From Paenarthrobacter sp. GOM3 (GTDB lineage: Bacteria; Actinomycetota; Actinomycetes; Actinomycetales; Micrococcaceae), in the NCBI RefSeq assembly GCF_018215265.2, contig NZ_CP136562.1:4092001-4156000 (forward strand): 64,000 nucleotides of DNA. Direction: 5' to 3'. The notes beneath the pieces are model-generated. The model made no database searches. It had not been told where the DNA came from and saw only the letters and a program-made list of their open reading frames with translations. The position numbers and the translations under genes are program-made. Of this stretch, positions 19,598 to 38,115 are shown piece after piece (position 1 is the stretch's first letter; the number at the start of each line of letters is the position of its first letter).

Positions 19598-20206
19598 CTA
19601 ATCCCCGGTCAGCAGGGTGCAGGCCTTCTTCAGGTCCTTCTCTGCCTCGAACAGGGACAACCGACGACACCGGACCGCCTGGACGAGCCCACTCACCAAG
19701 TGCAGCAGGATGCGGGCCCGCACGGTGTCCTTGCCGGTGTCCTTGCTCAGGGAACCAACGACTTCCTCGGACAACGCATCGATTTCACGCAGCAGCTGCG
19801 CCGAATCCTCATCCTTGCCTGCAGGCCGGATCAGGCAGTGCTCCACACCGGGCTGCATCACCCTCAGGTGGAAGATCTCCATCATCAAACCCGCGAGCGC
19901 GTGCCCCTTGCCTTCCCGGCGACGGACGCCGTCCCTGAGCTCACGCAGCTGTTGCCGGTAGACGGCGAGCATGAGGTGGGCGGTCGAGGGAAAATACCGG
20001 TACAGCGTGCCCAGCGGGACGTCGGCGCGCGCAGCGACGTCGGAGAGGCTCAGGGTATCGAACTGCCGCTGGGCAAAGCCGGCAGCTGTCTTGAGGATGC
20101 GGGCATAGCGCAGCTGCTGTCGCGGCGTGGTGGGCGCGGCAGCCATACGGGGCAACCCCGTGGTCAGGTCAAGGGAGTACGGTTCCAGTGAGTTTGATAC
20201 GGGCAT
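19598..20206 (-). CDS. TetR family transcriptional regulator
   Basis: 202-residue TetR-type regulator. The HTH is AGFAQRQFDTLSLSDVAARA followed by DVPLGTLYRYFPSTAHLMLA (about residues 35-75), of the KstR-like kind; the C-terminal helical domain is divergent. I use ATG 20206 because GGAA precedes it and the conserved region starts soon after; the frame remains open upstream without conservation. It is divergent from the first FG-GAP gene (204 bp gap). Ligand and targets unknown. Confidence 0.82.
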   Translation of the reverse strand: MPVSNSLEPYSLDLTTGLPRMAAAPTTPRQQLRYARILKTAAGFAQRQFDTLSLSDVAARADVPLGTLYRYFPSTAHLMLAVYRQQLRELRDGVRRREGKGHALAGLMMEIFHLRVMQPGVEHCLIRPAGKDEDSAQLLREIDALSEEVVGSLSKDTGKDTVRARILLHLVSGLVQAVRCRRLSLFEAEKDLKKACTLLTGD

Positions 20207-20409
20207 TTCCGGCGATCTCTTGGCAGGCTGACAAGGAAACGGCCGGCTGCGTAAAGACCCGCGGCTGGCCGATCGCATCAATGATACGGGAGCTAAATGA
20301 CCGTTTCCTGAGAGCTGGCCCGACGCCGCAGCGTGCACGCCGCTCCCGGCTATTGCCCCTGCCCGCACATACACTGCATGCAGGCTTGGAACCCATACGG
20401 GAGGAACAG

Positions 20410-21537
20410 ATGAGGACATTTCGACGTCGGGTGGCAGCAGCACTGCTGGCCGCCACTGTGGCGGCCATGGCATTTAGCCCCCTGCCGGCGTCGGCTGCCC
20501 CCAGCAGCGGGCCCGATCCCATCCTCAACGGAGAAGCTTTCGTCGGCAAGAAGCTGACCGCGGATATTGGCCTGTACACGTTCTACGGCTGCGGAGGCGG
20601 GAAGGGGCCGGACTTCACCGTCTATTGGACCCGGGACGGTTTCCTGGTGGCCGGCGAGACGGCGCGGAGCTACGTCCTGGAGCCGGAAGACGCCGGCGCA
20701 CGCATGGCTGTTCACGTTACCGCCAGCAAAACTGCCTGCGGCGGAGAGTCCCTGCACAGCACGGAGACCAGGCCAGTGGGAGACGTCAACAGGGCAGCCG
20801 GTTTCACCGGCCGGAGCTTCGAACTCCTGACCCGCGCCAACGATGGATCGCTGCTGCTGTACGGGCGGAAAGGCGGCGCCTGGGATCCCGCACGAACGGT
20901 GGGCTGGGGCTTCAACATCTTCAACCTTGTCCTCTCGCCCGGCGACTTCGACGGGGACGGCAAGAGCGATGTGATCGTCCGTGACACCGCAGGAGGCCTC
21001 TATCTGTTTAGTGGCGACGGTGCCGGGGGCTGGAAGCCTGCCCGGAGCATCGGCAACGGGTGGAACGTCTTCGATTCCATCGTCAGCCCAGGCGATTTCA
21101 ACGGCGACGGGCACAACGACATCCTCGCCCGCGAGCCCGGGGGCGCCCTCTACCTCTACCCCGGAAACGGCGCCGGAGGCTGGCTGGCGCGTACCGCCGT
21201 CGGGACTGGTTGGAACGTGATGGATGCGCTGGTGACCCCGGGAGATTTCAACGGCGACGGCACCGTGGACGTCCTCGCTCGGGACCGCAATGGCTACCTG
21301 TACTTCTATGGCGGAAACGGCTCCGGCGGATGGACCCGGTCCTGGTTGATCGGTGTCGGCTGGAATGCGTTGAAGTCCATCGGCGCTGCCGGGGACTTCA
21401 ATGGCGACGGCTTCCCCGATGTCCATGCCGTAGACCAACAGGGACGACTGGTGGCCTACTACAGTGACGGTCGCAGCGGCTGGAAGGGGTCGGAGGCCGT
21501 GGGCGCAGGCTTCGGATGGTTCACAGGGATCTTCTAG
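20410..21537 (+). CDS. Secreted FG-GAP/VCBS repeat protein, copy 1
   Basis: 375-residue exported protein. A Sec signal peptide (RRRVAAALLAATVAAMAFSP, cleavage after PASA) leads into an Ig-like or bacterial repeat domain of about 85 residues (VYWTRDGFLVAGETARSYVL) with a cysteine pair, then a beta-propeller-like set of FG-GAP/VCBS repeats. Each has a calcium-loop motif: GDFDGDGKSD, GDFNGDGHND, GDFNGDGTVD, GDFNGDGFPD. Blades repeat about every 48 residues with GxGWN(V/I) strands. GGGAGGAA precedes ATG 20410. Probably binds a surface ligand or polysaccharide; no catalytic domain is seen. First of three tandem paralogues. Confidence 0.85.
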   Translation: MRTFRRRVAAALLAATVAAMAFSPLPASAAPSSGPDPILNGEAFVGKKLTADIGLYTFYGCGGGKGPDFTVYWTRDGFLVAGETARSYVLEPEDAGARMAVHVTASKTACGGESLHSTETRPVGDVNRAAGFTGRSFELLTRANDGSLLLYGRKGGAWDPARTVGWGFNIFNLVLSPGDFDGDGKSDVIVRDTAGGLYLFSGDGAGGWKPARSIGNGWNVFDSIVSPGDFNGDGHNDILAREPGGALYLYPGNGAGGWLARTAVGTGWNVMDALVTPGDFNGDGTVDVLARDRNGYLYFYGGNGSGGWTRSWLIGVGWNALKSIGAAGDFNGDGFPDVHAVDQQGRLVAYYSDGRSGWKGSEAVGAGFGWFTGIF

Positions 21538-21589
21538 CAACATTCCAGCCGCGGTACCATTAACCCCATAAAAGTCTGGGGAGGACACA

Positions 21590-22735
21590 ATGAGTGCTTC
21601 ATCACGCCCTACGTTCGGCGTGCGCCGGGCGTTGGCTGGGCTCGCGGCGGCTGTCGTCGCCATTGCAACCTTTGCACCGGCGCCCGCCATGGCAACAATG
21701 GATCCCGAACCGCCGGTCATCACAGGAGCCCCCTTCGCCGGATCGACGCTCACCGTTTCCTGGGACCCGTACGCCTATAAGGGCTGCGGCGCCGGAGCCG
21801 GCCCCGACACGCGCATCTACTGGACCCGCGACGGCGAGGTGGCCACGGACCACCCCACATGGCCCAACTACGTCCTCGACGAAGAGGACCGCGGCAAGAC
21901 CATAGCCGCCCACCTTGTTGCGAACTACCCCTGCGAAGACCTGGAGGTGGCCAGCGAAGAGACCGCGCCCATCTCCGCTTCGCACCGTCCCAGTGGATTC
22001 ACCAGCCGGAGCGCCTTCGAACTGCTGGCCCGCCGCTCCGACGGCGCACTGATGATGTACCCGCGCATCAACAACACCTGGGAGCCGGCCCGCACGGTTG
22101 GCGCCGGCTGGAACATCTTCCCCACGGTCCTGTCCCCGGGTGATTTCGACGGCGACGGCAATAACGACGTACTCGGCAGGGACTCCGCAGGCGGCCTCTA
22201 CCTGTACAGCGGCGACGGCTCCGGCGGCTGGACCGGCCCACGCAAGGTGGGTACGGGCTGGAACATCTTCACAGCACTCGTCTCACCCGGGGACTTCAAC
22301 AGCGACGGCACCAACGATGTGCTCGCCCGCGACTCCAACGGCATCCTCTACCTCTACCCCGGCGATGGACACGGCGGATGGTTGCCGCGTTCCGTAGCTG
22401 GACAGGGTTGGAACGCCCTGAACACCCTCATCACTCCCGGCGATTTCGACGGCGATACCAACGTCGACGTGCTGGCCCGCGACTCGACCGGGAACTTGAA
22501 GCTATACCGCGGCAACGGCGCCGGTGGCTGGAACGGCATGAGCGTCGTGGGCCAGGGCTGGAGCGGCATGAGCAAGATCGGCAGTGCCGGAGACATCAAC
22601 GGCGACGGCAACTTTGACGTCTTCGCCGTGGATGGATCAGGCCAGCTGAAGGCCTATTACGGGAACGGCAAGGCCGGTTGGAACGGGTCCGCCGTAGTTG
22701 GTTGGGGCTGGGGCGGGTTCACGGACCTTTTCTAG
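21590..22735 (+). CDS. Secreted FG-GAP/VCBS repeat protein, copy 2
   Basis: 381 residues, same architecture as copy 1: signal peptide (ALAGLAAAVVAIATFAPAPA, cleavage near AMA), Ig-like domain (IYWTRDGEVATDHPTWPNYV) with cysteines, then FG-GAP blades with GDFDGDGNND, GDFNSDGTND, GDFDGDTNVD and GDINGDGNFD. One loop has Ser in place of Gly. GGGGAGGA precedes the ATG by five bases. It starts 52 bp after copy 1 and has its own short leader, so it may be co-transcribed or separately promoted. Confidence 0.86.
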   Translation: MSASSRPTFGVRRALAGLAAAVVAIATFAPAPAMATMDPEPPVITGAPFAGSTLTVSWDPYAYKGCGAGAGPDTRIYWTRDGEVATDHPTWPNYVLDEEDRGKTIAAHLVANYPCEDLEVASEETAPISASHRPSGFTSRSAFELLARRSDGALMMYPRINNTWEPARTVGAGWNIFPTVLSPGDFDGDGNNDVLGRDSAGGLYLYSGDGSGGWTGPRKVGTGWNIFTALVSPGDFNSDGTNDVLARDSNGILYLYPGDGHGGWLPRSVAGQGWNALNTLITPGDFDGDTNVDVLARDSTGNLKLYRGNGAGGWNGMSVVGQGWSGMSKIGSAGDINGDGNFDVFAVDGSGQLKAYYGNGKAGWNGSAVVGWGWGGFTDLF

Positions 22736-22748
22736 CCTTCACGGCGTA

Positions 22749-22783
22749 GGGAACCCTCCGGCGACATCCGGACGGGTTCCTTC
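22749..22783 (+). terminator. Hairpin terminator after FG-GAP copy 2
   Basis: GGAACCC-TCCGG and CCGGA-CGGGTTCC form an interrupted stem with a six-base loop, followed by TTCG, just after the stop codon. The tail is short. Confidence 0.6.
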
Positions 22784-22888
22784 GCCATAAACGGGCACTC
22801 TCTATTCCCGCGCTCCCGCAGGCGGTACTGTCATCCCAATTGATCTCTTTCGGCAATCTCCATGCCGCCTAATTTCCTGGGGGAATCC

Positions 22889-23881
22889 TTGGTCTTCAAA
22901 CCTGCCCTGCGCGCGCCTGCGCGCCGCCTGCTCTCCGTGTTAAGTGTGCCCTTCCTGGCCGCAGGACTGTTGGCAACTGCACTGCCGGTTTCCGCAGCGA
23001 CGGCGACCACAGAAACCGCCTCGACTTTCCGGACCGCAGCGGGCCTGGAAACGGCCAACGCCATGCCTATCGAAGCAAACCCCCGCTCAAAGGGCTTCGA
23101 TGGCGACGGCACCTTCGACTTGTTCGCCCGCGACAACGCCGGCCGCTTGCTCCTCTACCCCACCGACGGACGCGGCAACTGGCAGGCACCGCGAGTGATC
23201 GGCAATGGCTGGCACATCTACAACCTCCTGGTTTCGCCGGGAGATTTCGACGGCGACGGCACAGTGGACGTCATGGGCCGCGACGGCTACGGACGGCTTT
23301 TCCTCTACCAGGGAAATGGTGCCGGAGCCTGGAAGCAGGCCTTCCAAATCGGCCAAGGCTGGCAAGGTTTCGTCAACCTCATCGCACCCGGCGACCTGAA
23401 CGGCGATGGCACCAATGACATCCTTGCCCAGGATGCAGCCGGCAACGTGTTCCTCTACCCCGGAAACGGGCGGGGCGGCTGGCTGGCACCAAGCAAGGTC
23501 TCCTCGGCCTGGCAGGGACTTGATGCTGCCGGAGCCGGGCATTTCTATGGCACACCCGAGGCTGTGGTCCTTAGCCGCAACAGGTTTGGGGACCTTCAGG
23601 TCCGCTCGTCGCCGCGCAACGGATTCTTCTTTGAATACGGTGATCCCAGCGGCTACGACGGAGTCATTGGGAGGGGTTGGGAGGCCCTCAGTCGTTTTGG
23701 GGTTGCCGGTGACTTCAATGGAGATGGCTACAACGACGTTTACGGCATCGCTCCGAACGGCCTGCTGACGATGTATCTCGCCGATCCTTCAGGCTTCAGC
23801 AGCCGGGGCATCTATGGCTTCAAGTGGAAAGGGCAGCCCGTGGTGGGCAGCGGCTGGAACGTCATGAACTACGTCTTCTAG
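22889..23881 (+). CDS. Secreted FG-GAP/VCBS repeat protein, copy 3 (lacks Ig-like domain)
   Basis: About 330 residues. Signal peptide (LLSVLSVPFLAAGLLATALP, cleavage near VSA), then directly FG-GAP blades: FDGDGTFDLFARD, GDFDGDGTVD, GDLNGDGTND, GDFNGDGYND. Unlike copies 1 and 2 it has no Ig-like domain, and the fourth blade is degenerate. I prefer the TTG at 22889 (GGGGGA four bases upstream), which gives a normal signal peptide; an ATG at 22862 is in frame but without a ribosome-binding site. It ends three bases before the stop of the convergent MFS gene. Confidence 0.8.
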   Translation: MVFKPALRAPARRLLSVLSVPFLAAGLLATALPVSAATATTETASTFRTAAGLETANAMPIEANPRSKGFDGDGTFDLFARDNAGRLLLYPTDGRGNWQAPRVIGNGWHIYNLLVSPGDFDGDGTVDVMGRDGYGRLFLYQGNGAGAWKQAFQIGQGWQGFVNLIAPGDLNGDGTNDILAQDAAGNVFLYPGNGRGGWLAPSKVSSAWQGLDAAGAGHFYGTPEAVVLSRNRFGDLQVRSSPRNGFFFEYGDPSGYDGVIGRGWEALSRFGVAGDFNGDGYNDVYGIAPNGLLTMYLADPSGFSSRGIYGFKWKGQPVVGSGWNVMNYVF

Positions 23882-27690: not shown

Positions 27691-29139
27691 TCAGTAGGCG
27701 GCGCGAACAAGCTGGAGCGCACGTTCAACATCGCGCCGCAGGTCACGGTCGCCCATCTCCGACGGCAACGTGAATCCAGCCTCCATCATGGCGCGCAGCT
27801 TCGGGCTGCTGAACTCGTCGGCTCTCCGCTTTTGCAGTCTCAGGGCCCGCGCAGCACAAACCAGTTCGACGGCGGTAATGGTCGCCAGGGCTTCGGCCGT
27901 GGACTCCAGCTGAGCCGAGGCCAGGCTTGCGAAGCTCGCGTCTTCCTCAGCGCCCAAGGACAGCACGACGGTCTGCAGGCTTGTTGGCTGGGCATTGGCG
28001 CGGATCTTTCCCGCTGCAGCCGCCGCAACGTACTCCAGCATCATGACGCCGGACTGACCCGCTGCATCCTCAGCCAGGAAGGGGTGCATGCCCGTGTAGT
28101 TGGGGTCGCAAAGGAGATCAATCCTTCGCAAATGAGTTGCACACGCGGCACCCACAGCCACCTGAAGGGCATCGATGCGCCTAGCGAGGTTGGTCATTTG
28201 GAACAGCCCATGATGGGCCACATCGTTGCTGCCGTCGACCGGGGAGCCATGAACCAAAGGATTCTCGTTGCCTGCGGAGACCAGACGGCCCAGCAGGGAA
28301 CCCAGCGACGCCAATTCCTCCCATTGGGAACCGAAAATTTGCGGCAGTGTCCGCAGGCAGTACGGGTCTTGGATTCGGGCCGGTGTGCCACTGCCCTGGA
28401 CCAGCCCATGGAACGCATTAGCTGCCTGTGCCACAGCCGGGGTGTCCGCAGCCGCTGCCACCGCCGGGCTAAGCGTCTCCGCGTTGCCGGACATCGCTAC
28501 GAAGGACATCGCGGCCACCGAGGCAGCGTTGTCCAGGAGCCTGGACAACTCCTGATGCACCAGTACCGCCCGGGCAATGGTCAATGCGCTGGAGCTGAGA
28601 AAGGGGAGGGCATCGGCCGTAGCCCAGCTCTCCACGAAGGCCCGGGCCACTCCCCCGCCCAGGGGCTCACGTTCACCGAGCATCGTCAGCGCCGTTCCGG
28701 AGAGGGCTTGGAGGTCAGCAGTACCAATGCCTCCAAACTCCCGGACCTCAGGAACGACATCAGAGTTGATCAGCTCAGCAAGTGCCTCGGCAATTGCTGG
28801 ATTGATCCCCGAGGCGCCAGCGGCCAATTGGGAGAGCCGGACAACCAACATGGCACGGACGGTGCGCCGTTCCAGCGGCTTCCCGGCATCCACGGCATGG
28901 CTGCGCAGGAGCTTGAGCCCGTGGCTGTCTCCACCATCAGCTTCAGCCAGCGACACCGTCCGGTTCGCCCCAACACCTGTGGAGCGACCATAGACGGGTC
29001 GTTGCAAAGCGGTGGCCTCCGCGGACCGTCGCGATTCTTCCATGCGTGCCAAGGCTTCCGGAGAAAGCACAACCTGTTCGCCGTCCGCTACGGAGACGAT
29101 GTCCCGGAAGTCCAACCGCTGGCCATCAATCACGATCAT
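27691..29139 (-). CDS. HAL/PAL-family lyase lacking the MIO triad (candidate ergothionase- or hercynine-type lyase)
   Basis: 482-residue aromatic amino-acid lyase homologue. Family landmarks are VYGRSTGVGANRTV (Tyr50, usual catalytic Tyr), LAAGASGINPAIAEAL, RIQDPYCLRTLPQ (257-263 region), NENPLVHGS and LSLGAEEDASFASLA. The segment that in histidine ammonia-lyase reads GxVGASGDLxPLxH is here FGGIGTADLQALSGTAL (residues 135-151): the Ala-Ser-Gly that cyclises to MIO is replaced by Thr-Ala and is one residue shorter. I rechecked the codons at about 28705-28740. A MIO-independent elimination, as reported for ergothionase acting on a trimethylammonium leaving group, is therefore more plausible than histidine deamination. 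It lies 253 bp downstream of hutU. An inactive homologue is the alternative. Confidence 0.85.
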   Translation of the reverse strand: MIVIDGQRLDFRDIVSVADGEQVVLSPEALARMEESRRSAEATALQRPVYGRSTGVGANRTVSLAEADGGDSHGLKLLRSHAVDAGKPLERRTVRAMLVVRLSQLAAGASGINPAIAEALAELINSDVVPEVREFGGIGTADLQALSGTALTMLGEREPLGGGVARAFVESWATADALPFLSSSALTIARAVLVHQELSRLLDNAASVAAMSFVAMSGNAETLSPAVAAAADTPAVAQAANAFHGLVQGSGTPARIQDPYCLRTLPQIFGSQWEELASLGSLLGRLVSAGNENPLVHGSPVDGSNDVAHHGLFQMTNLARRIDALQVAVGAACATHLRRIDLLCDPNYTGMHPFLAEDAAGQSGVMMLEYVAAAAAGKIRANAQPTSLQTVVLSLGAEEDASFASLASAQLESTAEALATITAVELVCAARALRLQKRRADEFSSPKLRAMMEAGFTLPSEMGDRDLRRDVERALQLVRAAY

Positions 29140-29183
29140 GGATCGGTCCTTTCAATCGCGGTCAAAGGTGGATCACCCACAGA

Positions 29184-29234
29184 CCGGCAGTGGTGGTGGT
29201 CAGGTTGTTTCGCGACGACCACCACCACGGCCGG
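29184..29234 (-). other. Hairpin in the hutU-lyase intergenic region
   Basis: CCGG-C-AGTGGTGGTGGTC and GACCACCACCAC-GGCCGG form a long stem between hutU and the lyase gene, without a T-run. It may protect or attenuate the transcript. The rest of the 253-bp gap holds the GAAAGGA ribosome-binding site of the lyase and no gene. Confidence 0.6.
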
Positions 29235-29392
29235 CTAATCCGTTTCCGGGGCAAACCGGACGGGGTTCCAATCGGTGGCAGCGCGGGCAGGAGCCTGCTG
29301 CCGTGAAGCCGGCTGCATTGAGGGCACGGCTTCAGTATGCCGCGTCTCCGAATCGGAGCACACCCGCGATGTTTGGGACCTGGTGGACAAGG

Positions 29393-31138
29393 TCATTTGC
29401 TTGCTTCCGAGGAGATGACCTGGTTCATCGGGATGCGGACGCCGCGCTCTTTGGCGACTTCGACGGCGCGGTCGTAGCCGGCGTCGACGTGGCGGATGAC
29501 GCCCATGCCGGGGTCGTTGGTCAGGAGTCGTTCGAGCTTCTGCGCGGCCAACTCCGTGCCGTCAGCGACGGAGACCTGACCGGTGTGAAGGGACCGGCCG
29601 ATGCCGACGCCGCCACCGTGATGGATCGACACCCAGGTAGCGCCCGAAGAGGCCGCCGTCAAAGCGTTCAGCAACGGCCAGTCAGCGATCGCGTCCGACC
29701 CGTCCTTCATCGACTCCGTCTCGCGGTAAGGCGATGCCACCGAGCCGGAGTCCAGGTGGTCGCGGCCGATCACGATCGGGGCCTTGACCTTACCCTCGGC
29801 AACGAGCCTGTTGAACAACAACCCGGCCTGGTGGCGTTCGCCGTATCCGAGCCAGCAAATACGTGCCGGCAGGCCTTCGAATTCCACCCGTTCCTGGGCC
29901 GCGTCGATCCACTTATGCAGGTGCTTGTTCTCCGGGAACAACTCCTTGATCGCTTCATCGGTCACCCGGATGTCCTCCGGGTCACCCGAGAGCGCGACCC
30001 ACCGGAACGGCCCCAGACCCTCGCAGAACAACGGACGGATGTACGCCGGAACAAACCCCGGGAACTCGAACGCCCGGTCATAGCCGCCCTTGCGGGCCTC
30101 GTCACGGATCGAGTTGCCGTAATCGAAGACCTCAGCCCCCGCATCCTGGAACTCCACCATCGCCTGCACCTGTCGGGCCATGGAGGCCTGCGCCTTCTTG
30201 GTGAACCCTTCCGGATCCGCCTCGGCTTCGGTGTGCCACTCATCGACGCTGATGCCCTCGGGAAGGTAGGACAACGGATCATGCGCGGAGGTCTGGTCCG
30301 TGACCACATCAATGGTCAGCTCACCGGCCTTGTGCCGGCGCAGCAGCTCCGGGAACACCTCAGCGGCATTACCCACGTAGCCGACGGACCAGCCACGACG
30401 CTCTTCCTTGGCCTTGTTCACCTTGGCGATCGCGGTGTCCAGGTCCGTTTCGACCTCGTCCAGGTAGCGCTTCCCCAGCCGGCGGCGCAGGCGGGTTTCG
30501 TCAACATCAACAATCAGGCACGCGCCGTCGTTCAGGGTGACAGCCAACGGCTGCGCACCGCCCATGCCGCCACACCCACCGGTCAACGTCAGCGTGCCCG
30601 CCAACGGGCCCTCGGTGGAGCCGGCTGCTGCCGGTGCCGGGTGACGACCCTCCGCAGCGAGCTTCTCACCGACCGCAGCGAACGTCTCATACGTGCCCTG
30701 CAGAATGCCCTGCGTGCCGATATAGATCCAGGAACCGGCGGTCATCTGGCCGTACATCATCAGGCCCTCAGCCTCGAGGCGGCGGAACTCCGGCCAGGTC
30801 GCCCAGTCACCCACAAGGTTGGAGTTAGCCAACAACACCCGCGGTGCCCACTCATTCGTGCGGAACACACCTACCGGCTTACCGGACTGGACCAGGAGGG
30901 TCTCATCCTTTTCCATGGTTTCCAGGGTCCGGGTGATCGCATCGAAAGCAGCCCACGAGCGGACAGCACGGCCCGTGCCGCCATAAACCACCAGATCATC
31001 CGGGCGCTCGGCAACCTCGGGGTCCAGGTTGTTCATCAGCATGCGCAACGGCGCCTCTGTCTGCCACGACTTAGCGGACAGCTCCGTACCCCGGGCAGCC
31101 TTGACCGGACGGGCCCCTGTAGTGAAATCGGCAGTCAT
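29393..31138 (-). CDS. hutU: Urocanate hydratase
   Basis: Adds water to urocanate to give 4-imidazolone-5-propionate, using tightly bound NAD+ as electrophile. 581 residues, slightly above the usual 550-560. Strong conservation: [54 protein letters not shown] with the conserved cysteine (372), [48 protein letters not shown], and [23 protein letters not shown] precedes ATG 31138. It follows the ABC transporter genes by 44 bp and is probably in the same operon. A role on thiourocanate is possible from the context but there is nothing in the sequence to show it. Confidence 0.95.
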
Positions 31139-31182
31139 TCTTTACTCCTAAAAAGCCGGTATTCCGGGTAATAACAGTGGGC

Positions 31183-32097
31183 TTAGCCCAGGTTCTTGTT
31201 CTTGAGCCATTCCTTGGCGATTTCGCCGATGTCTTCGAACTTGGCCACGCGGCCGTTCATCTTGATCAGGTCCTCAGTGGTGAGCGCAGCTGATACCTTG
31301 TCGAGGGTTTCCTTGACGGTGCCAGTGGACTTCTTCTGGTTGATGACCGGAACGATGTTCTCCGAGAGGAAGAGGTTCTTGTTGTCCTCCAGTGCCACAA
31401 GGTTGTTCTCCGCCAGGGCAGGATCGGTGCTGAAGAGGTCGGCAACCTGGATCTGGCCCGAAAGCAGGGCGTTCAGCGTAAGCGGACCACCGGCGTCGAG
31501 CGCTGAAAATTCCTTGAACTCAAGGTTGTAGACGGACTTCAGCCCGGCCACGCCGTTGAGGCGGGTCTTCCACTCCGGCGGCCCGCCGAGGACGAGGTCC
31601 TTGGCAACGGGCTGGAGGTCCTCGATGGTCTTGAGCTTGTACTGGTCGGCGATTTCCTTCTTGACGGTCAGGACATCCTTGTCCTCCGCCTCGGATGCCG
31701 TGAGCGCAGTCAGGCCGGACGGGATCTTGGTGGCGAGTTCCTTGGTGACGTCCTCGGAAGACACCGCCTTCGTGCCGGAATCGAGGTACTGCAGGAGGGC
31801 TCCGCCGTACTCGGGCATGAGGTCGATGGAGCCGTCCTTGAGGGCCGGGATGGTGACTTCACGGCTGCCGATGCTCGGCTTCTCGGTGACCTCAACGCCC
31901 TTTGCCTTGAGGGCCTCGGCATAGATCTTGGCGATCAGCTGACTCTCCGGGAAGTCCGCCGAGCCGACGATGATGCTGTCGCCCGAGGCTCCCGCTGCGG
32001 CTGTGTTGGACGTGCTCATGGGGTCCCCGCCGCCGCAGGCGCTCAGGGTGATGGCGGCGACCGCCGCGAGGGTGAAACCGGTCAGGTACTTCTTCAT
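31183..32097 (-). CDS. ABC transporter substrate-binding lipoprotein, ProX/OpuBC (quaternary amine) type
   Basis: 304-residue lipoprotein: signal LTGFTLAAVAAITLSAC with lipobox LSAC (Cys21), then the OpuAC-type periplasmic-binding fold beginning IIVGSADFPESQLIAKIYAE, and SIDLMPEYGGALLQYLDSGT. These receptors bind betaine-like quaternary amines such as glycine betaine, choline, carnitine or ergothioneine. ATG 32097 has AGGAGAG upstream. With the two permeases and ATPase it forms an importer upstream of hutU, suggesting that the imported compound feeds the lyase and HutU; histidine betaines would fit. Confidence 0.88.
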   Translation of the reverse strand: MKKYLTGFTLAAVAAITLSACGGGDPMSTSNTAAAGASGDSIIVGSADFPESQLIAKIYAEALKAKGVEVTEKPSIGSREVTIPALKDGSIDLMPEYGGALLQYLDSGTKAVSSEDVTKELATKIPSGLTALTASEAEDKDVLTVKKEIADQYKLKTIEDLQPVAKDLVLGGPPEWKTRLNGVAGLKSVYNLEFKEFSALDAGGPLTLNALLSGQIQVADLFSTDPALAENNLVALEDNKNLFLSENIVPVINQKKSTGTVKETLDKVSAALTTEDLIKMNGRVAKFEDIGEIAKEWLKNKNLG

Positions 32098-32168
32098 GTC
32101 AACTCTCCTGGGTTGGCGCTCACAGGGCATGCGGCGGCCAGATGGGGGTGGGGTGGGAGGTGAAGCGA

Positions 32169-32885
32169 TTAGACCGTGGCGGGGGTTTTCACGGTCTCGG
32201 CTGCGGGAGCCGACTTGATGGTGCGCCGTGTCAGTCCTGGTGAGACAACCCGGCGGGTGATGAACGCGAGAAGCTGGTCGAAGAACAGGGCCAGCAGGGC
32301 AACCAGGACGGCGCCGGCAACCATTTGGCTGTAGTCGTTCTGGGCCTTGCCGTCGATCAGCAGACGGCCGAGGCCGCCGAGCGAAATGTATGCGGCGATG
32401 GTGGCGGTCGAGATGATTTGCAACAGGGCGCTGCGGACACCGGACAAAACCAGCGGAAGCGAGCACGGCAACTGGACATCCGTGAGAATCTTCATGGTGC
32501 GGAAGCCCATGCCTTTGGCAGCGTCGACGGCGGCAGCATCCACTGCGCGCACGCCGGCGTAGGTGTTGGTCAGGATCGGCGGAACTGCAAGCAGTACCAG
32601 CACGATGAGGCTCGGCAGGATGTAACCCATCCGGGACGGGAACGCGGGCGAGATCAGCAGGACCAATAGAATCAGCAGGCCGACGCTGGGAAGTGCCCGG
32701 AGGGCGTTGGCCAGTCCTGCGATCATGAACACACCCTTGCCCGTGACGCCGATGTAGATGCCCAGGGGTATGGCGATGATGGCAGCTACGGCCAGTGCGA
32801 TGAGGGAGTAGAGGAGGTGCTCGGCGATCAGGGTTGGGATGCCGTCGGCGCCGCTCCAATGTGCGGGGTCGAACAAGTAGTTCAC
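32169..32885 (-). CDS. ABC transporter permease, ProW/OpuC type (2)
   Basis: 238-residue inner-membrane permease with about six helices. The EAA-like loop AVDAAAVDAAKGMGFRTMKI then LTDVQLPCSLPLVLSGVRSA is the BPD_transp_1 signature contacting the ATPase. The GTG start at 32885 overlaps the upstream permease by 4 bp (GTGA); the frame is open further upstream only as a shadow of that permease. Paired permeases are usual for OpuC/YehWXYZ-type importers. Confidence 0.9.
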   Translation of the reverse strand: MNYLFDPAHWSGADGIPTLIAEHLLYSLIALAVAAIIAIPLGIYIGVTGKGVFMIAGLANALRALPSVGLLILLVLLISPAFPSRMGYILPSLIVLVLLAVPPILTNTYAGVRAVDAAAVDAAKGMGFRTMKILTDVQLPCSLPLVLSGVRSALLQIISTATIAAYISLGGLGRLLIDGKAQNDYSQMVAGAVLVALLALFFDQLLAFITRRVVSPGLTRRTIKSAPAAETVKTPATV

Positions 32886-33532
32886 GATGCCACCACCTTG
32901 GGGGTCCACGGTGTCAGCCACCGGTTGATGAGGATGATCAGCCCGTCCAGGATCATGGCCAGGACCACGCAGAGCACGATGCCCGCGATGATCGGGGTGA
33001 AGAAGCGGAGCTGGAAGCCCTGTGTGAAGAGCGAGCCAAGTTGGGGTATGCCCAGCAGCGCGGCTACGGAAACGAGGCTGACGTTGGAGACGGCGGCAAC
33101 GCGCAAACCGGCGCAAATGACCGGGACGCCTACGGGAAGCTCCACCTTCAGGAGGCTTTGGTACCCGCGGTAACCCATGGCCTTGGCAGCCTGCACGGTG
33201 TCCTCGGGAACGGAATCCAGCGCGTCGGCCACCACGCGGACCAGAAGAGCCACGGTGTAGATGGTGAGTGCGGCCACGATGTTGAGCGGATCAAGGATCT
33301 TGGTGCCCAGGACCAGCGGGAGCAACACGAACAAGGCAAGCGAAGGAACCGTGTAGAGCAGCCCCGCCACGCCAACAAGGAGCGGGTAAATGCGGCGGCT
33401 TCGGTGCGCCCACCAGCCAAGGGGCAAGGCAATGAGCAGCCCCAGGATCAGTGGGGTGACGGCCAACAGGACGTGCCAGCCGAGCAGGAATACGATGTTG
33501 TCGAACTGGCGGCCCAGCCATTCAAAGTTCAT
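32882..33532 (-). CDS. ABC transporter permease, ProW/OpuC type (1)
   Basis: 216-residue permease with five to six membrane segments. EAA-type loop ADALDSVPEDTVQAAKAMGY and RGYQSLLKVELPVGVPVICA, then LRVAAVSNVSLVSVAALLGI. It overlaps the ATPase gene upstream by 4 bp and the second permease downstream by 4 bp, so the transporter genes are tightly coupled. Confidence 0.9.
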   Translation of the reverse strand: MNFEWLGRQFDNIVFLLGWHVLLAVTPLILGLLIALPLGWWAHRSRRIYPLLVGVAGLLYTVPSLALFVLLPLVLGTKILDPLNIVAALTIYTVALLVRVVADALDSVPEDTVQAAKAMGYRGYQSLLKVELPVGVPVICAGLRVAAVSNVSLVSVAALLGIPQLGSLFTQGFQLRFFTPIIAGIVLCVVLAMILDGLIILINRWLTPWTPKVVAS

Positions 33533-34635
33533 CGCGCCGTCTCCAGGTGGGGTTCGGCTTCGATGGCCTTGACCACGTCGGTGGCTGTCACGGTGCCGAT
33601 CAGTTCGCCATGCTCATTGACCACCACACCTCGCCGGCTTGGCGAAGAGAGGGCTGCGTCAAGGAGTTGGCGCATGGTGCCGGAGGCCGCTGCAGAAATT
33701 CCGCTGAGGTTCAGGTGTTCGCGCTTCAGCTCACCGGTAACCTGCTCCGGCTGCGCCCATCCGAGCGGCTTCCTGCCGCCGTCGACTACCAACACCCAAG
33801 CACCCGACGCCTTGGCGCGGGCCTCATCTGCGGAGGCACCAAGCTGGACAACGGCTTCTTCACCGATGGCCACAGCCCCGGCAGTTTTGGTGAACCCGAG
33901 AGAACGGTAGCCGCGGTCACGGCCAACGAAATCGGCAACGAATTCGTCCGCGGGCGAGGTCAGCAACTCGGACGGCGTAGCCATCTGGGCCAGCTTGCCG
34001 CCAACGCGCATCACGGCCACCTGGTCGCCAAGCTTAAGGGCTTCGTCGATGTCGTGCGTGACCATAATGATGGTCTTGCCGATTTCACGCTGCAAGCGAA
34101 GGAATTCTTCCTGGAGCTGCGCGCGAACCACGGGGTCCACGGCACTGAAGGGCTCGTCCATCAGCATGAACGCCGGGTCCGAGGCGAGCGCCCGGGCCAC
34201 GCCCACGCGCTGCTGCTGGCCACCGGAAAGCTGCCACGGGTAGCGCTTGGCGAAGCTGGCGGGGAGGCCCACCCGCTCCATCAATTCCAGTGCGGTGGTC
34301 CGGGCCTTCTGGCGGCTTTCGCCGAGGAGGACCGGCATGGTGGCAACGTTGTCCACGATTGTTTTGTGCGGGAAGAGCCCGGCGTGCTGGATGACGTAGC
34401 CAATCCGGCGGCGGAGCAACGCTGCGTCCATGCCGGAAGTAGGTTCGTCGTCGAGGTAGATGGTGCCGCTGGTGGGTTCGATGAGGCGGTTGATCATCCT
34501 CAGCGAGGTGGTCTTGCCGCAGCCGGAGGGACCAACCAGGATGGTCAGCTTTCCGGTGGGTGCTTCCAGATTGAGGCCGTCGACGGCGACAGTACCGTCG
34601 GGGTAGGCCTTGGTGACATTTTCAAACTTGATCAT
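33529..34635 (-). CDS. ABC transporter ATP-binding protein, ProV/OpuCA type with CBS domains
   Basis: 368-residue ATPase: Walker A GPSGCGKTT (35-43), Q-loop VIQHAGLFPH, signature LSGGQQQRVGVARAL (136-150), Walker B FMLMDEPFSAVDP, H-loop MVTHDIDEALKLGD. The C-terminal part (about 250-368) holds tandem CBS-like segments (RGVVVNEHGELIGTVTATDV), which in OpuA-type systems sense ionic strength or nucleotide. It follows the IclR gene with an ATGA overlap. Confidence 0.92.
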   Translation of the reverse strand: MIKFENVTKAYPDGTVAVDGLNLEAPTGKLTILVGPSGCGKTTSLRMINRLIEPTSGTIYLDDEPTSGMDAALLRRRIGYVIQHAGLFPHKTIVDNVATMPVLLGESRQKARTTALELMERVGLPASFAKRYPWQLSGGQQQRVGVARALASDPAFMLMDEPFSAVDPVVRAQLQEEFLRLQREIGKTIIMVTHDIDEALKLGDQVAVMRVGGKLAQMATPSELLTSPADEFVADFVGRDRGYRSLGFTKTAGAVAIGEEAVVQLGASADEARAKASGAWVLVVDGGRKPLGWAQPEQVTGELKREHLNLSGISAAASGTMRQLLDAALSSPSRRGVVVNEHGELIGTVTATDVVKAIEAEPHLETAR

Positions 34636-35318
34636 TTTGCTTCCATGCTTTCCTGGGGTAGCTCATGGGTGTCGGTGTTCAGGGTGAGGATGTTGTCAGC
34701 TTCCTCCACCAGTTGCTGGCCGATCTTGAGGGCCTTCAGCTCATCCACGCGGTAGCTGGGAACCACGATGCTCAGTGAAGCCACCGTTCGGCCTCCCATC
34801 ACCACGGGCGCGGCAATGGCCGTAACGTCGTCCTCCACACCGCTGCGAACCACGGCAAAGCCACGCTCGGGCTGTTCGCCCTTGAGTACCTGGCCGGACG
34901 CTGTGCCTTCGAGCGGGATACTCCGCCCAACCCAGCTGGAGTGCCTGATCGAGTGGGTTCCCTCAACGATCGCGATGTAGATTCCCGTGTCCCCAACCCC
35001 GGGAATGCTCAGATAGCAGGACTCGCGCGTTGTTGCCACGAGCCGCTTCATGGCGGGCGTGCACAACGAGACGAGTGATTCCTTGCCGAGCGCGAGCGCA
35101 CCCAGCTGGATGATGCTGGCGCCCGGACGGAAGTTGCCGCCGTCGTCCCTCGAGACGAAGCCGACACCTTCAAGGGTGCGCAGAAGGCGAAGAGCCGTGC
35201 TGGGCGAGAGGTCCGCGACCCGTGCGGCGTCGCTCAATGCAATGGCTCCCTCGGAGCACACGGCCCCCAAGAGGGCGAGCGCACGCTCTACCGTCCGGGT
35301 CGAAGAATCTGCTGCCAT
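34632..35318 (-). CDS. IclR family regulator of the ABC-hutU operon
   Basis: 228-residue IclR-type regulator. HTH: TRTVERALALLGAVCSEGAI, ALSDAARVADLSPSTALRLL; C-terminal sensing domain with RESCYLSIPGVGDTGIYIAI, IPLEGTASGQVL and VTAIAAPVVMGGRTVASLSI. I use the ATG at 35318; another ATG at 35363 is in frame and neither has a strong ribosome-binding site. It is the first gene of the transporter-hutU unit and divergent from the M20-hutF pair. The symmetric promoter elements between them suggest that it controls both directions. Confidence 0.85.
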   Translation of the reverse strand: MAADSSTRTVERALALLGAVCSEGAIALSDAARVADLSPSTALRLLRTLEGVGFVSRDDGGNFRPGASIIQLGALALGKESLVSLCTPAMKRLVATTRESCYLSIPGVGDTGIYIAIVEGTHSIRHSSWVGRSIPLEGTASGQVLKGEQPERGFAVVRSGVEDDVTAIAAPVVMGGRTVASLSIVVPSYRVDELKALKIGQQLVEEADNILTLNTDTHELPQESMEAK

Positions 35319-35357: not shown

Positions 35358-35541
35358 TGCCACTTAGTAAAAACCAATTTTCACAGCATGGCAAGAGTCT
35401 TTTCTAAATTTCGCGGGATTCCGGGAAATATGTCGCTCCACATCACCACGGCGTGACGCCCATGTTTCCGGTCCGTTAAATACCGCTCTCCCAGCCTCGA
35501 ACCCTTGCCATGTGATGACAACTGCTTTTTACTTGGTGGCA
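35358..35541. promoter_or_regulatory. Nested inverted repeats in the divergent IclR / M20-hutF promoter region
   Basis: TGCCACTTAGTAAAAA (35358) and TTTTTACTTGGTGGCA (35526) are near-perfect inverted copies, so each divergent gene has TTTTTACT..GTGGCA close to its start. Inside them CATGGCAAG (35387) and CTTGCCATG (35504) form a second, perfect pair. The spacing is mirror-like, which suits one regulator, probably the adjacent IclR protein, acting on both promoters. Confidence 0.6.
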
Positions 35542-35563: not shown

Positions 35564-36763
35564 GTGGAAACCGTCAATAAGCTCCTTGGGTCCATCCAGG
35601 ACGTAGGCCGGGATGGCGTGCGCGGAGGCTACTCCAGGGCCGTATATTCAACGCCCGAACTCGATCTCCGCGAGTGGTTCATAGAGCAAGCCGCGCAGCG
35701 GGGCCTGGACGTCGAGACAGACCGCAACGGCATCATCTGGGCCTGGTGGGGCGAGCCACAGGACGGTGCCTTGGTCACTGGAAGCCACCTCGATTCGGTC
35801 CCCGGCGGAGGCGCTTTCGACGGGCCCCTCGGCGTCGCTTCCGCACTGGCCGCCGTCGACATCCTTAAGGACCGCGGGCTCCAGCCGCGGCGCTCCCTGG
35901 CGGTCACCGTCTTTCCGGAGGAAGAAGGGTCCCGATTCGGCGTCGCATGCCTGGGTTCCCGGCTCCTGACAGGTGCGATCGACGTCGACAAGGCGCTGAA
36001 CCTGCGTGACGTGAACGGTGACACTTTCGCGGATGTCGCACGTTCCAATGGCTTGGATCCCCGGTACGTCGGCGCCGATCCGGAAGCGATGGCCCGAATC
36101 GGTGACTTTGTGGAACTGCACGTGGAGCAAGGCAAGGGACTGGGGCAGGATGGTGCGGCTATCGCCGTCGGAAGTTCGATCCTGGGTCACGGGCGCTGGA
36201 AGATCAGCGTCAGCGGGCAAGGAAACCATGCGGGCACCACGCTGATGGCAGACCGCGCTGATCCGATGGTGGCTGCAGCCCAGATCGTCCTGGCTGTGCG
36301 CGACACCGCGGCGAAGCAGCCGGACGCCAGGGCAACGGTGGGCCGCTTGACCCCTGTTCCCGGCGGCACCAACGTCATCGCCTCCCGCGTTGACCTGTGG
36401 CTCGACGCCCGCCACCCGGATGACGCCGTAACCGCCCGCCTTATCGAGGCCATCTATGCCGCGGCGCAGGAAGTCGCCGCAGCCGAAGGTTGCACAGCGA
36501 CCCTCACCGAGGAGTCCTACAGCGGGACCGTTCATTTTGACTCAGAGCTAAGCCGTCGGATCGGTGGCTTGCTGCCGGGCGCGCCGGTGCTGGCCACGGG
36601 TGCCGGGCATGACGCCGGCGTGCTGGCCGGATACGTACCCTCCGCCATGCTTTTTGTCCGCAATCCCAGCGGCATCTCGCATTCACCCGAAGAATACGTT
36701 GCCGATGAAGACGCTTCGTCCGGAGCCGTTGCCCTCGCAGATGTTTTGGCTGGCCTCCTGTGA
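35564..36763 (+). CDS. M20-family amidohydrolase (allantoate/N-carbamoyl/N-formyl amino acid hydrolase type)
   Basis: 399-residue zinc-dependent M20 hydrolase of the hydantoinase/carbamoylase (HyuC/AllC) branch. Metal-site motifs are VTGSHLDSVPGGGAFDGPLG (His75, Asp86), VFPEEEGSRFG, ELHVEQG and a C-terminal GAGHDAGVLAGYVPSAMLFV; the dimerisation insert has GNHAGTTLMADRADPMVAAA. A perfect GGAGGA precedes GTG 35564. It overlaps hutF by 4 bp, so its substrate is probably N-formyl-L-glutamate (replacing HutG) or N-carbamoyl-L-glutamate. Which of these cannot be read from the sequence. Confidence 0.85.
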   Translation: METVNKLLGSIQDVGRDGVRGGYSRAVYSTPELDLREWFIEQAAQRGLDVETDRNGIIWAWWGEPQDGALVTGSHLDSVPGGGAFDGPLGVASALAAVDILKDRGLQPRRSLAVTVFPEEEGSRFGVACLGSRLLTGAIDVDKALNLRDVNGDTFADVARSNGLDPRYVGADPEAMARIGDFVELHVEQGKGLGQDGAAIAVGSSILGHGRWKISVSGQGNHAGTTLMADRADPMVAAAQIVLAVRDTAAKQPDARATVGRLTPVPGGTNVIASRVDLWLDARHPDDAVTARLIEAIYAAAQEVAAAEGCTATLTEESYSGTVHFDSELSRRIGGLLPGAPVLATGAGHDAGVLAGYVPSAMLFVRNPSGISHSPEEYVADEDASSGAVALADVLAGLL

Positions 36764-38115
36764 CCGCGTTCTGGTGTGAAACGGCGATCATCGCGTCCAA
36801 GAGCGGGTCACGGGAGCCCGAGGCCGCTTCTGGAGTGCGCTTGGAAACCCACGACGGACGGATCACCAGTGTCACGGCAGGCAGCCGGCCTCAGCCCGGC
36901 GACAAAAGACTGGAGGGCATCGTCTTCCCGGCAGCTGCCAACGCCCACTCTCACGCCTTCCACAGGGTCCTGCGTGGCCGCACCCATGAAGGGCGTGGGG
37001 ACTTCTGGGTATGGCGGGAGCAGATGTACACCAGCGCGTCTGAGCTGACCCCGGAGAAATACGAAAAGCTTGCGACCGCCGTTTTTGCGGAGATGGTGGT
37101 GACCGGTTTCAGCAGCGTTGCGGAGTTCCACTACGTCCACCACCAGCCCGATGGTGCACCTTATCCGGAGCCCCACGCCATGGAATTGGCGCTGGCCCGC
37201 GCCGCCATGGCAGCCGGAATCCGCCTGACCCTTCTGGATACCCTGTACCTGGCCGGCGGAATCGGAACGCCCCTCAGCCCCGAGCAGGCACGGTTCGGAG
37301 ACTCGGACGTCCATGCATGGCTGGACCGCCTGGCCTCGCTCCGAGCTGCCATAGCCGGGAGCTTTCCTGCGGATCGTGTGAGCGTCGGGGCTGCCTTGCA
37401 CTCGGTGCGTGCGGTCCCCGAAGAGGACTTGAAGGTGGTGGCCGCGAAATTGCCGGCAGACATTCCCCTCCATATCCACCTGAGCGAACAGCCCGCCGAG
37501 AACCAGGCCTGCCTCGAGGCTTACGGCACTACCCCGGCTGGCCTCCTGGAACGTCACGGGCTGTTGACGGAAAGGCTCTCGGCCGTTCACTCAACCCACC
37601 TGACGCCGGAAGACATCACCTCGCTTGGTGAAGCCGGCACCACCGTGGTGATGTGCCCCAGCACCGAAGCCGACCTCGCAGATGGAATTGGCCCGGCGAG
37701 GGAACTTTCGGATGCGGGAGCCACCATCGCACTGGGTACCGACCAGCACGCCGTGATCGATCCATGGACTGAAATGCGGACCCTTGAACACGGGGAGCGG
37801 TTGGGCAGCGGCCAGCGCGGGAGGTTCTCACCGCAGGAATTGCTGCGGGCCGCAACCGAAGGAGCAGCCCGTTCCATGGCCACCCCGGTGGCTGGCCCGG
37901 TCCTTGAAGTGGGCGGTGTTTGCGACCTCATGGTCATCGATCCCGCCTCCACGCGCACCGCCGGATCGCGGCCCCTGCAGATGGCATTCAGCGCGACAGC
38001 CAGCGACGTCACCGATGTGGTCATCGCTGGGGAGTTGCTCGCCTCGCACGGCGTACATGCACGGCTGGGCAAGCCTGGCACCGTGCTGGCGGAGGCGCTG
38101 AAGGAGCTCTCCTAG
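36760..38115 (+). CDS. hutF: Formimidoylglutamate deiminase-type amidohydrolase
   Basis: 451-residue amidohydrolase-superfamily enzyme of the HutF type, which converts N-formimino-L-glutamate to N-formylglutamate and ammonia. Zinc-site and family motifs: VFPAAANAHSHAFHRVLRG, GDFWVWREQMYTSASELTPE, TGFSSVAEFHYVHHQPDG, PLHIHLSEQPAENQACLEAY, LSAVHSTHLTPEDI, ALGTDQHAVIDPWTEMR. GTG 36760 is coupled to the M20 gene (GTGA). No hutI follows, unlike typical hut operons, so imidazolonepropionase must be elsewhere or the pathway differs. Confidence 0.9.
   Translation: MTAFWCETAIIASKSGSREPEAASGVRLETHDGRITSVTAGSRPQPGDKRLEGIVFPAAANAHSHAFHRVLRGRTHEGRGDFWVWREQMYTSASELTPEKYEKLATAVFAEMVVTGFSSVAEFHYVHHQPDGAPYPEPHAMELALARAAMAAGIRLTLLDTLYLAGGIGTPLSPEQARFGDSDVHAWLDRLASLRAAIAGSFPADRVSVGAALHSVRAVPEEDLKVVAAKLPADIPLHIHLSEQPAENQACLEAYGTTPAGLLERHGLLTERLSAVHSTHLTPEDITSLGEAGTTVVMCPSTEADLADGIGPARELSDAGATIALGTDQHAVIDPWTEMRTLEHGERLGSGQRGRFSPQELLRAATEGAARSMATPVAGPVLEVGGVCDLMVIDPASTRTAGSRPLQMAFSATASDVTDVVIAGELLASHGVHARLGKPGTVLAEALKELS

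Follow-up and report, generated by a model that had tools for sequence, protein, structure and literature searches.

The present study deals with a locus in a 64,000-nucleotide stretch of the genome of Paenarthrobacter sp. GOM3 (contig NZ_CP136562.1, positions 4,092,001 to 4,156,000), which is called the window below. On its minus strand, the genes of an IclR-family regulator, an ATPase, two permeases, a receptor and a urocanate hydratase (HutU) lie upstream of the gene of a lyase of the histidine ammonia-lyase (HAL) family, and the genes of an M20 amidohydrolase and of HutF are divergent from this run. The lyase lacks the motif of the 4-methylideneimidazol-5-one (MIO) cofactor, and our analysis suggests that it probably turns an alpha-N-substituted histidine into urocanate, with hercynine (histidine betaine) as the candidate substrate.

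Results

Loss of the MIO motif in the lyase

The lyase has 482 amino acids and scores 303 bits against Pfam Lyase_aromatic, and its 242 bits against the curated model TIGR01225 (hutH) fall far under the cut-off of 539. Residues 135-151 read FGGIGTADLQALSGTAL, as had been given in an earlier, sequence-only reading of this DNA, and in the alignment the triad A142-S143-G144 of the Pseudomonas putida HAL is replaced by a gap, Thr and Ala. The earlier reading took the change for a one-residue deletion and not a sequencing slip, and this is borne out: the frame continues, residue 142 (HAL numbering) is absent in all 40 proteins of the clade to which the lyase belongs, and the ratio of nonsynonymous to synonymous substitution rates (dN/dS) is 0.11-0.17 against four related loci, where dS, at 1.1-1.6, is near saturation. 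Hence the change is no slip, and the gene is not decaying.

The 40 clade proteins were aligned with the P. putida HAL, the genome's own HutH, the ergothionase of Treponema denticola and the other MIO-less lyase of the genome. Position 143 is Thr in 39 of the 40 clade rows and Ser in none. Asp145, Tyr53, His83, Gln277, Arg283 and Glu414 of HAL are kept in every row, Ser82 in 39 and Phe329 in 38; according to an excerpt of PMC3903478, the pair of Ser82 and His83 separates HAL from phenylalanine and tyrosine ammonia-lyases (PAL/TAL), and the window lyase has this pair together with all imidazole and carboxylate residues of HAL. Three further positions were compared: Asn195 of HAL is Ser in 40/40 rows, the same as in the T. 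denticola ergothionase; position 385 (Gln in HAL) is Glu in 39/40; and position 386 is Tyr in 40/40 and in the own HutH, and Lys in the ergothionase and in a lyase on a Sinorhizobium plasmid (L107). What the computation shows is the loss of MIO, the retention of HAL-type residues, purifying selection and conserved linkage with importer and hut genes.

In comparison with Paenarthrobacter aurescens, the lyase shows 82% identity and a dS of 1.17, and its seven neighbours 89-99% and 0.22-0.70. Such divergence at silent sites as well may point to a separate history of the lyase gene (recombination), not just to quicker change.

Distribution and phylogeny of the clade

Three genome searches, whose draws overlap and whose E limits differ, found clade members in at least 10 of 197, at least 23 of 394 and at least 9 of 396 genomes, the own genome being counted each time. 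The next matches after the clade in the 197-genome search were ordinary HAL in 8 of 12 loci, namely those with a motif readable by script. A search of plasmids gave 60 records, and most of the 40 listed were annotated as hutH; among six plasmid records, two (L102, L103) belong to the clade by motif, three (L104-L106) have the HAL triad and L107 is another MIO-less type. TIGR03832, tried as the source of a PAL/TAL outgroup, had no match over its cut-off in 118 genomes.

Two quick trees were built with the motif columns excluded, the root set on HAL and long branches flagged. The first contained 59 of 63 rows (without L072_AAGE, L094, L086 and L111); for the second, of 60 rows, eight of the 63 were omitted (the AAGE rows of L071, L072 and L091, and L094, L086, L111, L112 and L098, the last being the L163 protein under another locus) and five were added. 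The lyases of L101, L164, L165 and L173 are in neither tree. In both, the clade is one group with support 100, distinct from the 17 HAL rows as well as from those near the ergothionase, and the split between HAL and the MIO-less rows has support 94 and 99, respectively. When the clade and the ergothionase alone were constrained together, the approximately unbiased (AU) test gave p 0.066. Thus the tree comparison proposed earlier sets the clade apart from HAL and does not join it to the T. denticola ergothionase, though that p value does not reject a joint grouping; the two may share a single MIO loss. L163, from a phylum-level relative, branches off before all other clade members in the second tree (91 for the rest) and is unresolved in the first.

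Comparison with known enzymes

The statement in the sequence-only reading that ergothionases are HAL homologues working without MIO agrees with our alignment to the T. denticola enzyme (PDB 6s7j and 6s7q, the sole entries named ergothionase in the PDB listings). The two enzymes have in common the HAL family, a one-residue deletion of the triad, the change of Asn195 to Ser and the retention of Tyr53, His83, Arg283 and Glu414. They differ in that they are separate in the trees, in Tyr versus Lys at 386, and in the linkage of the window lyase to hut genes with an ordinary HutU. A 2026 survey, in the part available (PMC13405746), holds ergothionase to be restricted to few genera. With HutH the window lyase shares the family, the Ser-His selectivity pair and the base and carboxylate residues, and it differs in the missing triad, the Ser at 195 and the low hutH score; a true HutH lies elsewhere in the genome.

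Operon and host genome

The presence of HutU and an importer in the operon of the lyase, claimed earlier, holds by strand and by profile scores (Table 1). Within the run, the genes are separated by short gaps or overlaps, save for about 250 bp between HutU and lyase. A scan for promoters and terminators of the locus gave results near chance level and was not used.

Table 1. Features at the lyase locus, with positions in the window
Feature	Position	Strand	Basis
MIO-less HAL-superfamily lyase, proposed hercynine trimethylamine-lyase	27691..29139	minus	profile scores, alignment, trees
Place where the Ala-Ser-Gly (MIO) motif has been lost: codons of Thr140-Ala141-Asp142	28714..28722	minus	computed from ORF start 29139
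HutU, urocanate hydratase; second copy in the genome, 95% identical to the hut-locus copy	29393..31138	minus	profile scores
OpuAC/ProX-type substrate-binding protein (receptor) of importer; lipoprotein by eye, start inferred	31183..32097	minus	profile scores, alignment
Importer permease B; inferred start, based on L102 and on the permease A overlap	32169..32885	minus	
Importer permease A	32882..33532	minus	
Importer ATPase, ProV-like (294 bits, cut-off 327); CBS match slightly under cut-off	33529..34635	minus	
IclR-family regulator, first gene of the presumed operon; GTG start at 35363 possible	34632..35318	minus	
M20 amidohydrolase, divergent; presumably the last step to glutamate, common with histidine breakdown	35564..36763	plus	
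HutF, formimidoylglutamate deiminase; NF006681 545 bits (cut-off 362), TIGR02022 407 bits (just under 413)	36760..38115	plus	

The genome of 4.46 Mb has three genes of the HAL family: besides the window lyase there are a second MIO-less lyase (296 bits) and a true HutH (651 bits). The canonical HutH adjoins the first of the two HutU copies elsewhere, and the window provides the second HutU along with the lyase. The sole HutI over the cut-off lies at 1.51 Mb, the window at 4.09-4.16 Mb, and the HutF of the window is the only strong match in the genome (407 bits, the next best 140). By these positions, at least three loci contribute to histidine breakdown, and the HutF and HutI steps would be common to it and to the route from the lyase.

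The window HutU scores 868 bits to TIGR01228 (cut-off 375). It and the M20 protein belong to the same superfamilies as the NCBIfam models for ergothioneine breakdown (thiourocanate hydratase and ErtE), and they fall under the cut-offs, HutU under those of both thiourocanate hydratase models. The M20 protein as ErtE was rejected (277 bits against a cut-off of 520). A search of the genome for EgtD gave no match, which is modest evidence, since the control matched in 1 of 14 genomes and under the cut-off; hercynine would then come from outside.

At 20188-23881 of the window there are three adjoining predicted proteins with DFDGDGxxDVxxRD-like repeats, which look FG-GAP/VCBS-like by eye.

Gene linkage in relatives

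Linkage was counted in 38 clade loci of about 20 kb each where the contig allowed (several are cut by contig ends), with a simple gene-calling script of our own; the window and L099, a 4-kb contig with HutU, are not in the count, and the loci are not independent by kinship, eight being from one genus. At least two of the receptor, permease A and permease B are near the lyase in 25/38 loci, HutU is within 9 kb in 18/38, and an importer or hut gene is in reach in 30/38. By our own estimate, one hutU would fall within 10 kb of a given gene by chance in well under 1% of genomes of such size. The gene order of the window recurs in P. aurescens TC1 (L100) and Arthrobacter sp. StoSoilB13 (L102), and L070 has the order lyase-MFS-HutU instead. 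The importer genes run divergently from the lyase gene in the majority of loci and co-directionally with it in the window group and L163. HutH stands beside the clade lyase in several hut clusters (L064, L077, L079, L084, L085 and L163).

In three loci (L071 10906-15602, L072 and L091), a divergent HAL-like protein is encoded a few genes from the window-type lyase. Its MIO site is Ala-Ala-Gly-Glu in L071 and L072, and its neighbours, by eye, are ornithine cyclodeaminase, LacI and amidohydrolase genes.

The L163 operon and related hut loci

The 20-kb stretch of L163 carries on one strand HutH, an ATPase, two permeases, a receptor, the lyase, M20, HutU, HutF and HutI. The scores are 636 bits for HutH, 339 for the lyase (under the hutH cut-off) and, for hand-chosen in-frame stretches, 935 for HutU, 530 for HutF (NF006681) and 437 for HutI. 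The receptor and lyase ORFs, as called from their first starts, overlap by 4 bp. Since HutH is present in this operon too, the lyase should work beside HutH and not instead of it.

The L163 receptor has Lys242, Tyr293, Thr296, Asn339, Tyr341, Glu375, Arg379, Phe419 and Tyr443 (EgtU numbering), and the fact that it is encoded within a hut operon speaks for a histidine compound as the ligand. Another MIO-less lyase (GSVG-QA-DL) is found near hut genes in 4 of 38 other genomes of the same order (L172-L175). M20, HutU, HutF and HutI are near it in L172, L173 and L175, with HutH also in L172, and just a part of HutU in the cut locus L174. An importer of the L163 type is in reach in three of these four loci, with receptors having the full residue set, and the three lyases of the four that were placed in a tree fall outside the window clade. 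All four receptors read from L163, L172, L173 and L174 show the complete set of cage and carboxylate residues known from receptors for quaternary ammonium compounds (QAC), with Phe244 and Tyr293 and not the Gly244 and Phe293 of EgtU, which make the EgtU site specific to ergothioneine according to an excerpt of PMC9732360.

The receptor in the window

The window receptor resembles the EgtU/OpuC/ProX-type QAC importers in its family, in Glu375 and Arg379 and in the aromatics at 293 and 419, whereas equivalents of Lys242, Gly244, Tyr341 and Tyr443 are missing; Phe and Tyr stand where EgtU has its ergothioneine determinants Gly244 and Phe293. Moreover, the EgtU receptor is fused to its permease (PMC9732360, same excerpt), whereas the window receptor gene is separate. 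Glu375 and Arg379 are kept in all of the 26 lyase-linked receptors read, of which 21 besides L163 align in register; those of L077-L080 are out of register in the first half. The receptors of L077 (14586-15533), L080 (5510-6505) and L079 look circularly permuted, with the domain-2 half before the usual N-terminal half.

Other MIO-less lyases

Near 3.90 Mb of the own genome (L074 7674-11634), one gene run encodes another MIO-less lyase (GSVG-SS-DL) together with a cysteine synthase-like protein and a flavin monooxygenase of the NtaA/DmoA type. This lyase has relatives (E up to 1e-60) in 4 of 296 genomes, the own included. As a guess, this locus possibly serves sulfur recovery from ergothioneine or its sulfonate. 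The plasmid of Sinorhizobium sp. B11 (L107 1572-6476) carries another type (GSIG-AG-DL), which is accompanied by genes for an ABC importer, for a protein like ornithine cyclodeaminase and for two LLM flavin monooxygenases.

Discussion

The kept HAL-type contacts, the lost MIO and the neighbouring HutU together point to a histidine derivative that has a better leaving group than ammonia and gives urocanate as the product. That the clade converts an alpha-N-substituted histidine to urocanate we therefore regard as probable. L163 and L172-L174, with their full-cage receptors, speak for a quaternary amine, and since the window HutU scores as a urocanate hydratase and below both thiourocanate cut-offs, hercynine is preferred over ergothioneine; it is also the best fit among the natural compounds known to us. 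Accordingly, the run from IclR through the ATPase, permease A, permease B, receptor and HutU to the lyase may be a module devoted to the import and breakdown of an alpha-N-substituted histidine, likeliest hercynine, though for hercynine itself our confidence is evenly balanced. In this proposal, the importer would take up hercynine and the lyase would hold its imidazole and carboxylate in the manner of HAL. Lacking MIO, the enzyme would expel the good leaving group trimethylamine by a base-assisted 1,2-elimination, giving urocanate for the adjacent HutU, and the product might pass through HutI, encoded elsewhere, and then the divergent HutF and M20 to glutamate. Substrate, leaving group and product, as well as the roles of importer and IclR, are what we infer from this combination.

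Compared with the pathway for hercynine or ergothioneine put forward in the sequence-only reading, the residues, the linkage and L163 support an elimination that needs no MIO and feeds HutU, while the receptor argument has become weaker and ergothioneine less likely. M20 and HutF, assigned there to the completion of the route to glutamate, are indeed present and divergent, but they are not specific to the pathway, and HutF is the only strong copy in the genome.

A number of facts weigh against hercynine or a dedicated module. Two of the four cage aromatics are lost in the window receptor. All 21 in-register receptors besides L163 have Asp in place of the EgtU Tyr341 and Ala in place of Lys242, and position 443 is Tyr in none of them. 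This Asp is shared by 18 of 20 receptors (Asn in the other two) from genomes with no match in the 394-genome lyase search, read in loci of about 4 kb, and by a second receptor of the own genome (L166). It is therefore not peculiar to lyase loci and does not suit a quaternary amine; as a marker of the lyase it was rejected. A related receptor (E up to 1e-35) was found in 184/394 genomes, versus 23/394 for the lyase (E up to 1e-52). The window importer thus belongs to a broad actinobacterial subfamily for which a betaine is only a candidate ligand, and in this we see the weakest point of the betaine proposal as far as the window is concerned. The earlier view of this importer as a betaine binder is weaker than was claimed, the full cage being found in four distant loci only among the receptors read; we dropped the window receptor as proof of a betaine for want of the EgtU-type cage and keep that argument for L163 and L172-L174 alone. 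Even the L163 receptor has its nearest relatives by sequence in the acetylcholine and nicotine sensor receptors (186 bits), ahead of EgtUC (145 bits), which makes choline, glycine betaine or a smaller betaine possible as the ligand, and Glu375 is present in the acetylcholine sensor as well. This likeness to choline-type receptors, together with the basal place of L163 not being firm, slightly lowers our confidence in both the general and the hercynine claim. As for the lyase, it is sporadic (1 of 12 genus members listed has it), neither importer nor hut gene is in reach in 8/38 loci, and an MFS transporter adjoins it in four loci by a separate reading, the MFS count in the linkage analysis being too low. 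Its predicted structure, built from four sequences, has a mean predicted local distance difference test score of 38.5, too low to use. From general chemistry, moreover, a weaker activation of the beta-proton is expected from the imidazole in hercynine than from that in ergothioneine.

Alternatively, the lyase might act on another alpha-N-substituted histidine, such as mono- or dimethylhistidine or an opine like histopine, and release urocanate with an amine other than trimethylamine: the Asp and the Glu, Gln or Ala that the window receptor subfamily has at two cage aromatics would suit an N-H ammonium, and the kept imidazole and carboxylate residues and the linked HutU fit as well. However, secondary and primary amines leave badly without MIO as a matter of general chemistry, and in L163 the receptor that accompanies the lyase has the full cage, so that we consider this unlikely. 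An ergothionase, which would turn ergothioneine into thiourocanate and trimethylamine for HutU or another hydratase, has in its favour the MIO loss and the Ser at 195 in common with the T. denticola enzyme, as well as HAL-rooted trees with all MIO-less rows on one side (94, 99). It is nevertheless quite improbable in view of the HutU being a urocanate hydratase by curated cut-offs, of the four full-cage receptors without the Gly244 and Phe293 of EgtU, and of both trees leaving the clade ungrouped with the ergothionase, even if the AU test does not reject a joint group. Position 386 also speaks against it, being Tyr in the whole clade and Lys in the ergothionase and L107, where the lysine might, as a guess, contact sulfur; with Arg at 83 and Asn at 195, L107 is itself no simple ergothionase reference.

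A different source of trans-urocanate, for example isomerisation of cis-urocanate or dehydration of imidazole-lactate, would need no MIO and would accord with HutH standing beside the lyase in several hut clusters. Yet the commonest partner is an OpuC-type importer (25/38), and neither compound needs the ammonium site of such a receptor, so this too has a low probability. Finally, HAL is established to require MIO for ammonia release, and the lyase is less conserved than its neighbours towards P. aurescens (82% against 89-99%), as might be expected of a catalytically dead paralogue kept as a regulator or subunit; with five catalytic or binding residues in 40/40 rows, a dN/dS of 0.11-0.17 and conserved partners, we find this very improbable indeed.

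Returning to hercynine as the substrate, no description of a hercynine lyase was found in searches of an open-access library. We tentatively propose, with a confidence just short of even, that the clade is an enzyme family without earlier description, a hercynine trimethylamine-lyase which has lost MIO, and that it would extend the hut pathway of Actinomycetota to a general route for histidine betaines with its own importer and partly its own HutU. The closest curated model for such lyases is histidine ammonia-lyase, which as chemistry is probably wrong. If the proposal is true, it adds a bacterial source of trimethylamine and shows the fold of a MIO enzyme used without the cofactor. Hercynine is among the quaternary ammonium compounds of soil in the available part of PMC8550315, and in that of PMC4595634 biocrust water loses histidine betaine through organisms not identified. 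A gene marker for hercynine breakdown would make the source of this loss testable, and the clade may belong to the means by which organisms remove histidine betaine from soil.

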